Assembly: GCA_011958945.1 (NCBI GenBank)
Contig: BLLT01000014.1
Span: forward strand, 1-37,819
Direction of reading: 5' to 3'
Length of the DNA: 37,819 bases
Origin: Lachnospiraceae bacterium
GTDB taxonomy: Bacteria; Bacillota; Clostridia; Lachnospirales; Lachnospiraceae
In this document: positions 13,013 through 15,974 of the stretch, in pieces
Position numbering within the stretch: the stretch's first letter is position 1
How the letters are laid out: the number at the start of each line of letters is the position of its first letter
Position numbers and translations under genes: made by a program
The notes under the pieces: model-generated
The model's input: the letters and a program-made list of their open reading frames with translations, nothing else
The model's database searches: none
What the model was told of the DNA's origin: nothing

Positions 13013-13140
13013 ATTTATATGCCGTGGGTCCAACTGATTACCGTTTGTCGTGTTTGCTATCAAAACCTCATTGACAAAAATCCCCCTATATGTTACCATA
13101 ACTTCACAATATTCGTGGATAAATTATTAATGACGTGAAA

Positions 13141-13190
13141 CCTATCTATTGGAAAATGAATTCTAATGGATGGGTTTTTTGTGTTTTTTT
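13141..13190 (+). terminator. Terminator/attenuator-like hairpin just upstream of the surface-protein gene
   Basis: CCTATCTATTGGAA 13141-13154 / TTCTAATGGATGGG 13161-13174 (14 bp incl. 3 G.U), then TTTTTTGTGTTTTTTT. Confidence 0.7.
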
Positions 13191-13229: not shown

Positions 13230-15974
13230 ATGAATAAAAATAAAAGAAAATCGATAAAAGTGAAGCTTGCCGCAGTAATTGCTGCAGTGATGATGGCGAT
13301 GCCTTTTGGAGCATATGCGGAAGAAATGACAGCAGTCCAAAAAATACACCATGTCCATGTTGGCAGTTCGGAAGAAGGGGGAGCATGCTATGAGAAGGAA
13401 GTAAAACACGTTCATGAGGGAAGTGGGGAAAACGGCGGAGACTGCTTTCGCACCCCGGTTTACCATGCCCATGAGGGGAGCGCGTCAAAAGGCGGAGCAT
13501 GCTATCAGACGGAAATTTTTCATACACATAAAGGAACGGAAGCGAATGGAAAGGGCTGCTATGGTGAGCCGGTATACCATCAGCATGACGGGAGTATAAA
13601 CGCCGGGGGCGGCTGTTACAAGAAACCGCTCTATCATAGCCATACAGGAAGCAGCGCTGGAGGAGGCTGTTACGGAAAGCCTGTTTACCACAGTCATACA
13701 GGGAGCAGTGCCGGGAGCGGCTGTTATGGAACTCCGGTTTACCACCAACATACGGGAAGCGCCTCGGGAGGAGGGGGCTGCTATATCACCCCTGTTTATC
13801 ACAACCATACAGGAAGCGAGGTTTCAGGGGGCGGCTGCTATAGTCCGGTTTACCATCAGCATAGCGATGCCTGTTATGAGGAAAAGCTATGCGTGGCGGA
13901 ATATGTCAGTGGTTTAACGGTGATAAGGACATGGACGGAATATTGCTATCACCATAAAAATACACAACATGCAGCTATTGGAGGTATTTTCCGCCATACC
14001 GCATGCGGTGCAGGGGATAAATACGAAGAGGAAAGTATCTGCTGGGCCTGCCAGATATTAAAAGTGAGGCACAATTACTCGGAGATAATTTGCGGGAAGA
14101 CAACGGATACAGTGGAAGGCTACGAGAGGACATGCGGGAAAGATACAAACAGCATAGAATCCATGGCTTTAGGTTGTGGGAAAAACGAATCCAGCATCGA
14201 ACAATACGGATTAAGCTGTGGGAAAAATGAACAGACGGTGGATTCTTACCAAATAAACTGCAACAAAAATGAAAGCACTATAGACAGTTATGCCTTAAAC
14301 TGCAATAAAACGGAGTCTTCTATAGAAAATTATTCTTTAAACTGCGGACGGACCGAAGAAGATGTAGACGCTTACGAACTGGACTGTGAAAAAGATGATA
14401 AAACCATAGACGGCTATGCTCTTTCCTGCGACAAAACAAACGATACGGTGGATAGCTATGAACTTTCCTGCGAAAAAAATGAAGAGGATGGCTATGCGGA
14501 ACTTTTCATTATCAATAAAACTGCCGGATGGACGGACGGGAAAGTGGTCTTGCAGGCATCTTATAAGGATGAGCAGGGATTTCTGGAATTATCGAATCCC
14601 CCTTTTATTTGGGAAGGGGATGGGATAGAAGGAGAAAACGGCGACGAAGTGGAGGTGTCATCTAATGGAATTTATAGAGTACGCTTAAATGTAGGGAATG
14701 ACGATATCAGTCAGGAAGAGTTGGTCTGCAGCCTGGAAGTGAAGAATATGGATTTTACCCCTCCGGTCATTGATGAGGCAGAGTGCATAGAAAAAGACGG
14801 AATAGTGACAAATATACTCCGCATAACAGCAAAGGATTTGCAGCCGGATGGAACGGAAGGCAGCGGCTTGGCTGAGGAAGCCTATTCTTTTGACGGAGGG
14901 AAAACATGGCAGCAGAAAAATGAAATGGAACTGGAGAAAAATGGGGAAATATTCATTGCGGTGAGGGATATCTGCGGAAATATATCCGTTCGGGCAGTAG
15001 AAGTGTCACATATTATAGGAGAAAAAGAGCCGGAAGGGGATGGAAATGGCACGGATACGGAGAATGAAGATAATATCGGCGGGGGTACAGGAGACGGAGA
15101 AGATACAGGAAACGGAAATGGAACAGGAGACGGAGAAGATACAGGAAACGGAGATGGAACAGGAGACGGAACAGATACAGGAAATGGAAATGACTCCGGA
15201 GATGGCGGGAATTCGGAAAATAACAAAGATGAAGGGACAGATAGCGGTTCCGGGGAAAATTCCGGCCAGGGAGGAAATTCCGGTTCATCGGGAAATGCAG
15301 GTAAGAACCATTTGGACGAGGAAGATGGGAAAAAGTTGGAAGATAGCCTGGAGAAGGATAAGCAGCTGTTGGAAAACAATAAGCAGCCATTGAAAAAGAA
15401 GGGAGATTCTTCCCGGAAGGATGGAAACGGGAAAGAAAATGGAAAAGCCCGATGGAACAGGGCGGATGAATACGAAATCGCAATGCCAAAGAAAAATGAA
15501 ACAGCGATAACCGATGAGGACGAAGGCTTCCAAAAGGAAACAGGGGAAATAGAGGCGGCAGAAGCGATGGCAGGGCCTCAGGCCGGGGAAAGGCTGCTGA
15601 TGGCAAAAAGGGCTGAAACAGTGGAAAAAGTTGTAAAAGCTGTTACTTTTACAGTAAGTGGAATCATGCTGGCAGCAGGGCTGCTTTACCTGATTTATCT
15701 CATGTTCCGCAGCATACAGATTTTTGACTGCGATGGGGAAGGGAATACCAAATATGCTGGGAGCTGTATTATGAAAAAGACAGAAGAAGGGTTTGAAGTG
15801 AGAATTCCGGATATGATCTGGGAGCATTCCGCTACGGGTCAGTATAGCCTAAAGCCAGGGAAGCTGTTTGCAAAGAGAAATAAAGGAAAAGAATTGATAG
15901 TAATGATGGGGAATAGGAAGGAAGCGGTATGGATTGATAAGGAAATTCCCCTTAGGGTTTCTGTATGTGCATAA
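13230..15974 (+). CDS. Predicted secreted, membrane-anchored surface protein with two Cys-rich tandem repeat arrays
   Basis: Signal peptide (VKLAAVIAAVMMAMPFGAYAEE), repeats, Gly/Asp/Asn-rich linker, C-terminal TM (TFTVSGIMLAAGLLYLIYLMF) and about 90-aa tail. Confidence 0.85.
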   Translation: MNKNKRKSIKVKLAAVIAAVMMAMPFGAYAEEMTAVQKIHHVHVGSSEEGGACYEKEVKHVHEGSGENGGDCFRTPVYHAHEGSASKGGACYQTEIFHTHKGTEANGKGCYGEPVYHQHDGSINAGGGCYKKPLYHSHTGSSAGGGCYGKPVYHSHTGSSAGSGCYGTPVYHQHTGSASGGGGCYITPVYHNHTGSEVSGGGCYSPVYHQHSDACYEEKLCVAEYVSGLTVIRTWTEYCYHHKNTQHAAIGGIFRHTACGAGDKYEEESICWACQILKVRHNYSEIICGKTTDTVEGYERTCGKDTNSIESMALGCGKNESSIEQYGLSCGKNEQTVDSYQINCNKNESTIDSYALNCNKTESSIENYSLNCGRTEEDVDAYELDCEKDDKTIDGYALSCDKTNDTVDSYELSCEKNEEDGYAELFIINKTAGWTDGKVVLQASYKDEQGFLELSNPPFIWEGDGIEGENGDEVEVSSNGIYRVRLNVGNDDISQEELVCSLEVKNMDFTPPVIDEAECIEKDGIVTNILRITAKDLQPDGTEGSGLAEEAYSFDGGKTWQQKNEMELEKNGEIFIAVRDICGNISVRAVEVSHIIGEKEPEGDGNGTDTENEDNIGGGTGDGEDTGNGNGTGDGEDTGNGDGTGDGTDTGNGNDSGDGGNSENNKDEGTDSGSGENSGQGGNSGSSGNAGKNHLDEEDGKKLEDSLEKDKQLLENNKQPLKKKGDSSRKDGNGKENGKARWNRADEYEIAMPKKNETAITDEDEGFQKETGEIEAAEAMAGPQAGERLLMAKRAETVEKVVKAVTFTVSGIMLAAGLLYLIYLMFRSIQIFDCDGEGNTKYAGSCIMKKTEEGFEVRIPDMIWEHSATGQYSLKPGKLFAKRNKGKELIVMMGNRKEAVWIDKEIPLRVSVCA
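13344..13893 (+). repeat. About 10 protein repeats, consensus [VI]YHxHxGSxxxGGGCYxxP (18-19 aa)
   Basis: HHVHVGSSEEGGACY, VKHVHEGSGENGGDCF, VYHAHEGSASKGGACY … VYHNHTGSEVSGGGCY, VYHQHSDACY. Confidence 0.95.
14091..14468 (+). repeat. Nine tandem 14-aa (42-bp) protein repeats, consensus CxKxExTIDSYxLx
   Basis: CGKTTDTVEGYERT CGKDTNSIESMALG CGKNESSIEQYGLS CGKNEQTVDSYQIN CNKNESTIDSYALN CNKTESSIENYSLN CGRTEEDVDAYELD CEKDDKTIDGYALS CDKTNDTVDSYELS; all exactly 14. Confidence 0.97.
15087..15188 (+). repeat. 36-bp tandem repeat in the Gly/Asp-rich linker
   Basis: ACAGGAGACGGAGAAGATACAGGAAACGGAAATGGA begins at 15087, 15123 and (diverged) 15159. Confidence 0.85.

Follow-up and report, generated by a model that had tools for sequence, protein, structure and literature searches.

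Hairpins with two antiparallel arms are known from the SMC and Rad50 proteins, whose coiled coils are joined by a hinge or a zinc hook. A pair of His residues arranged as HxH on a strand, as in carbonic anhydrase, is a classic metal chelate. In phage fibres, HxH motifs form iron sites, and in the homotrimeric needle of T4 gp37 each iron is held by six His residues (PMC11705849). Among surface proteins, the stalks of fibrillar adhesins are exported, built from repeats and held at the surface by a wall or membrane anchor (PMC9210967), and BAD-1 of Blastomyces is a surface adhesin with short tandem Cys repeats, in which a disulfide between conserved Cys residues closes the loops (PMC3708853). The module described here, which is part of a predicted surface protein of a Lachnospiraceae bacterium, can be compared with each of these systems. 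As in the SMC/Rad50 hairpins, its arms match in length and the turn is made by a constant element, but whereas their arms are coiled coils with at most one metal site, those of the module are two unlike Cys/His repeats with a possible site at every rung. In the T4 gp37 needle and related fibres, tandem HxH motifs similarly have a demonstrated or proposed role in holding metal along the fibre (PMC11705849); however, the unit of the module adds a Cys, it has a matching Cys unit in the same chain and there is no sequence match between the two. The protein carrying the module resembles fibrillar adhesins in its predicted export, its repeats and its predicted anchor, but the sequence of the module matches no known stalk domain and its stabilisation is proposed to be by metal. 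Lastly, its tandem Cys repeats are short, as in BAD-1, but its units have one Cys each, which would be paired with the other arm.

The window analysed in this work, by which we mean the whole stretch of 37,819 nucleotides, contains an open reading frame of 914 aa (13230..15974; all features of the window are on the + strand) whose product is predicted to be exported and C-terminally membrane-anchored. Its signal-peptide-like N terminus (aa 1–30, 13230..13319, ending in AYA before EE) is followed by an H-arm (13344..13877) consisting of ten units of the form HxH-x-G-S-x3-G-G-x-C-[YF], a Cys/His-rich cap (13878..14090) with the motifs CYHH, HxxCGxG, CWxC and HNY, and a C-arm (14091..14477) consisting of ten 14-residue units with the consensus C-G-K-x-E-x-T-V-E-x-Y-x-L-x. 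Beyond this module there is an Ig-like/PKD-like region (aa 424–602, 14499..15035), recognised by weak profile matches only and containing a BNR-like SFDGGKTW sequence, then a low-complexity spacer of Gly, Asp, Glu and Lys (15036..15638) that probably spans the cell wall, one transmembrane segment (aa 804–826, 15639..15707) and, at the C terminus, a conserved domain of some 85 aa that is predicted to be cytosolic (15711..15971). Because the protein has a signal-peptide-like start and one C-terminal transmembrane stretch, both recognised by eye, its initial annotation as a surface protein is reasonable. Pfam searches of the window protein yielded just a sub-threshold BNR repeat and no adhesive domain, and the signal-peptide-like segment, the repeats, the spacer and the membrane anchor were all recognised by eye. 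The gene is present in a single copy in its own genome, where the one other match (E = 0.09) lies outside the module. At the syntenic locus of another genome (G052; L046 7664–8152), the C-terminal domain is the sole part of the protein that is retained, forming together with a transmembrane segment a protein of 162 aa.

The initial annotation had drawn attention to a His/Cys array in the N-terminal part of this protein. Ten HxH units are indeed present there in frame (aa 40–215, nt 13347–13874), with a period of about 18–19 aa and one Cys per unit that is followed by Tyr or Phe; the last unit (13854–13874) is a short form, HxHxxxC. The ten observed matches to H.H...C[YF] compare with a mean of 0.1 and a maximum of two when these residues were shuffled 10,000 times. 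Among 442 H-units from 104 homologues, the His pair was HxH in 414, HxxH or HxxxH in 27 and HxC in one, so that HxH or its spaced variant was kept in 441 of them, and C[YF] was kept in 435. The sole HxC unit (VHNCTDAC in L134), where a His is replaced by Cys, is compatible with the swap of one ligand for another. In the G005 orthologue (L009), a Cys replaces the Tyr ahead of HxH in three H-units (VCHTH, VCHVH and VCHSH), and the extra Cys is therefore found on one arm only.

The array, although real, is only half of the module, as the cap and the ten-unit C-arm had been overlooked. The C-arm of the window protein has ten Cys residues spaced exactly 14 residues apart (aa 288, 302, 316 and so on to 414), and the ten H-units are thus matched by ten C-units. 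The same comparison was extended to 104 distinct homologues, all from a single family and representing three protein architectures, in which equal numbers of H-units and C-units were found at n = 1, 2, 3, 5, 7, 10, 12 and 13, where n is the number of units per arm. The count is ambiguous in the first ORF of paralogue L062. A first automatic counting rule, which miscounted Cys residues of the cap and of the parent domain, gave equal arms in 80 of the 104, and a second rule gave exactly equal arms in 89, its share being high across n = 2, 3, 5, 7, 10 and 13. The other 15 (n = 1, 2, 3, 5 and 12) are equal by eye when a Cys of the cap or of the parent domain, or an extra HxH in the cap, is discounted; these counts were made with the pattern already known, which is a weakness. 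For three of the 89 (L054, L057 and L059) the rule had picked the wrong Cys, and by eye their arms are also equal, at 2/2, 2/2 and 3/3. The variation in repeat number, which the initial annotation had proposed to check among strains, was followed across species: H-units range from 1 to 13, with the second arm always varying along. A tree based on the cap region shows at least nine changes of n, each of them affecting both arms. The length of the cap, measured from the Cys of the last H-unit to the first Cys of the C-arm, is independent of repeat number, amounting to 73 residues at n = 7, 10 and 13 and to 70–74 at n = 5.

The equality of H-units and C-units by which a two-arm ladder is recognised is thus present in the module. 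Because every H-unit is matched by one Cys unit beyond a constant cap, the chain likely folds back as a ladder, and as the cap length is nearly constant the tips of the arms should meet at the cap whatever the value of n. The idea that the H array by itself is the functional unit is for the same reason not borne out. A very different explanation is that the array is a flexible, low-complexity sequence with no defined fold, the equal numbers resulting from descent or from chance coupled duplication. The Gly/Ser-rich loops are in keeping with this, as is the very low confidence of AlphaFold2, which gave a mean pLDDT of 37.5 for the 385-aa module and 31.4 for a 153-aa piece containing three rungs; both were run with an input limited to five sequences, and because of this the models are too poor to interpret. 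We consider a flexible array very improbable, since equality has been kept through at least nine changes of n and in three architectures, the ligands are nearly invariant and the units covary in nested order.

This order was examined by computing the APC-corrected mutual information for each H-unit/C-unit combination and ranking all one-to-one pairings. For n = 5 (34 sequences), the nested pairing, in which H_i is paired with C_(n+1-i), ranked first of 120 under nearly all settings, and it kept this rank with weighting and with reduction to 29 sequences. It was also first of two at n = 2 (39 sequences) and first of six at n = 3 (nine sequences). For 15 sequences from the window's genus (n = 7, 10 and 13), with seven units anchored at the base, it was first of 5040 pairings when the top 30 column pairs were used and 18th with the top 5; when the units were anchored at the cap it was weak, ranking 629th or 1962nd of 5040. 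Parallel pairing had no high rank in these sets. Raw mutual information without APC left the nested pairing mostly unremarkable, the ten n = 10 sequences taken alone gave no covariation signal and the correlation between H- and C-unit lengths was uninformative on pairing. As drawn from small sets of related sequences, the covariation lends support to, and is not proof of, an arrangement with H-unit i beside C-unit n+1-i. An antiparallel arrangement is further preferred because the cap is of near-fixed length at any n, whereas a parallel connection would lengthen with n. Parallel arms were rejected on account of their poor covariation rank and because the cap, with its roughly 73 residues, would need to bridge anywhere from 5 to 13 rungs.

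Known domains and PDB sequences provided no counterpart for the module. The search with profile models that the initial annotation had called for retrieved no named domain, there being no convincing match in Pfam, NCBIfam or PHROGs over the H-arm, cap and C-arm; at E<=10 the module profile matched none of the PDB sequences, and a literature search found no description of it. A classical C2H2 zinc finger (C-x2-4-C-x12-H-x3-5-H, about 30 aa) was considered and rejected, since the H-unit has one Cys, the His residues are spaced as HxH and the second Cys is in the other arm; there was also no Pfam zinc-finger match, ADD_DNMT3 appearing at E = 4.4 only. The module would therefore seem categorically new, a judgement based on the libraries searched and on general knowledge; its structure is itself a prediction. 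The least probable of the explanations we have weighed is a trimeric iron needle like the tip of T4 gp37, in which three chains would together supply the HxH motifs for octahedral iron sites. Its attraction lies in the repeated HxH motif, in the known iron sites of this kind in phage fibres (PMC11705849) and in the long coiled coil that precedes the module in one architecture, but a conserved Cys in each unit, matched by a Cys unit elsewhere in the chain, has not been described for the T4 needle, and phage records and viral contigs, like the PDB sequences, yielded no match to the module.

The explanation that we favour, with a probability of roughly two in three, is that the module is a metal-stapled, antiparallel two-arm ladder, or hairpin stalk, probably with Zn(His2Cys2) sites. 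The outgoing N-terminal arm would contribute n units of the form HxH...CY, after which the chain would turn at the constant 73-residue Cys/His cap and come back as n Cys units. Since H-unit i is taken to lie beside C-unit n+1-i, each rung would bring together two His and one Cys of the outgoing arm and one Cys of the returning arm in a tetrahedral His2Cys2 site, most likely with one Zn(II) per rung. The product would be a stiff, length-adjustable stalk forming the part of surface proteins that lies farthest from the membrane, in carriers that are anaerobes seemingly without disulfide-forming enzymes. Of the two chemistries suggested by the initial annotation, metal binding through H-x-H...C is in our view the best reading. 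Zinc would be the first choice of metal on the basis of the HxH motif, the His2Cys2 set, the cobW-type neighbours described below, the zinc-linked subgroup of COG0523 and the absence of DsbA and VKOR; iron, cobalt and copper are possible too.

The other suggestion, an inter-repeat disulfide, is less likely because there is a single Cys per H-unit, the HxH is conserved as strongly as the Cys, one His has been exchanged for Cys and the carriers examined have neither DsbA nor VKOR. The profiles of these two families, DsbA (PF01323) and VKOR (PF07884), which were the ones searched, had matches in none of eight carrier genomes in which control profiles did match. The conservation of HxH, the exchanged His and the missing enzymes also speak against a disulfide ladder, in which the hairpin is retained and each rung joins an H-arm Cys to a C-arm Cys, the His pairs serving for example in pH sensing or surface metal binding. 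Equal numbers of Cys in both arms and an extracellular location suit disulfides as well as metal, enzymes of the DsbA/VKOR type occur in some clostridia (PMC12453122) and further oxidants or thiol enzymes could form such bonds. However, obligate anaerobes tend toward excluding Cys from exported proteins (PMC12453122), and the cobW neighbours in one genus also count against a disulfide ladder, which we therefore regard as unlikely.

The cobW neighbours are found in another genus, in which the module proteins are of a coiled-coil type. At 40 of 42 loci, a cobW/COG0523 gene begins 67–280 bp downstream on the same strand; this neighbour is limited to that one genus and one architecture, and the window has none. 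Two of the cobW pairs were profiled: the first gene has PF02492 and CobW_C, with a GCICC (GCxCC) motif and long His runs, and the second has PF02492 and DUF1980_C. Proteins of the COG0523 group are cytosolic, and some use metals other than zinc. They are putative metal chaperones, a large subgroup of which is tied to zinc limitation (PMC2770081), and their position beside module genes suggests metal supply, although they are not homologous to the module.

We put at about even odds the broader scheme in which two unlike repeat arms of one chain are kept equal in number by a zinc at each rung, an H-unit and a C-unit are gained in pairs, metal substitutes for disulfides, and a leader RNA in two genera and a cobW-type chaperone gene in a third belong to the system. 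If a metal-stapled ladder is the correct structure, this would amount to a repeat architecture whose two unlike arms are held in register and at equal number by metal, and the rule of two His and two Cys per rung would predict the stoichiometry, topology, growth and shrinkage of such proteins. It would also bear on how extracellular proteins are stabilised in strict anaerobes without disulfide enzymes, and would point to a structure on the surface of gut bacteria that could be dependent on the availability of zinc. The short members (n = 2 or 3) permit the ladder idea to be tested directly.

The leader RNA lies upstream of the window gene, where a sigma-70-like promoter (TTGACA-N17-TACCAT, 13071..13099), aligned in most of the genus, precedes a conserved 5' leader of 78 bases (13105..13182), identified by alignment and a covariance model, ahead of the start codon. 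The leader ends in a hairpin resembling an intrinsic terminator (13137–13178); it aligns genus-wide, with two-sided changes in 3 of 14 pairs, and was upstream of the module gene at all 13 genus loci tested. Its covariance model has one match in the window's own genome, one in a second genome (G001) and, in a third (G015), a match at the module gene plus one weak additional match. A leader is also found, weakly, upstream of the module gene in much of the genus of G317; there it begins CACTTACCGCT and occurs once per genome in five genomes. Rfam gave no credible match, and the leader is a candidate attenuator or riboswitch-like element specific to the module gene in two genera. The possession of its own terminator-bearing leader points to regulated expression of the gene, which would suit a metal store or buffer whose arms capture many zinc, copper or iron ions at the surface, stiffness being of no concern. 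Such a store is also compatible with as many as 13 potential sites in a protein and with the cobW/COG0523 pair adjoining the gene in one genus, but it needs neither strictly 1:1 arms nor a nested order nor a near-constant cap, and no metal transporter gene was recognised next to the window gene. We hold a metal store to be quite improbable, less probable than the disulfide ladder.

Orthologues of the window gene are present in 14 of 15 other genomes of its genus (15 of 16 with its own), and at most loci examined the gene order is conserved, with a membrane-protein gene on one side and an amino-acid ABC transporter (SBP_bac_3) on the other. The named relatives, 28-4 and 526-35 among them, are bacteria of the Lachnospiraceae. 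Profile searches detected the module in other genera of the same family; it was present in 10 of 397 genomes of the family, in 8 of 295 from the order, all belonging to the one family, and in 2 of 300 from the phylum, both again from this family. Two additional genera often carry it, one in 45 of 79 genomes and the other in 36 of 38. No relatives were found in phage records, plasmids (by tblastn) or viral contigs, including by a DNA pattern search. On account of the conserved chromosomal synteny, the idea that the window gene is cargo of a mobile element was rejected.

The module occurs in three architectures. In the first, that of the window protein, a signal, the module, an Ig-like region, a spacer, a transmembrane segment and the C-terminal domain follow one another; in the second, an N-terminal transmembrane segment and a long coiled coil precede the module. 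In the third, the module interrupts an ALK/LTK glycine-rich domain (PF12810) toward its end, and the Gly-rich motif of that domain continues beyond the module. Such an insertion is expected for a unit whose ends are close together, and the two ends of the module are therefore likely to be so. In one genome (G401), three module paralogues are found in or beside a glycine-rich domain of this type, two of them in tandem (L172 4147–6699; L058). A coiled-coil module protein of another locus (L045 6373–8649, - strand) is encoded among MobL relaxase, T4SS-DNA_transf, Toprim and helicase genes, and because it adjoins conjugation genes, a mobile element may likewise make use of the module at the cell surface. 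Lastly, the cobW genes at five loci (L093, L094, L096, L100 and L101) themselves encode tandem His/Cys stretches of variable length, e.g. HEHCCHHHHDDDED, which are likely a second repeat-type metal-binding array beside the module gene.
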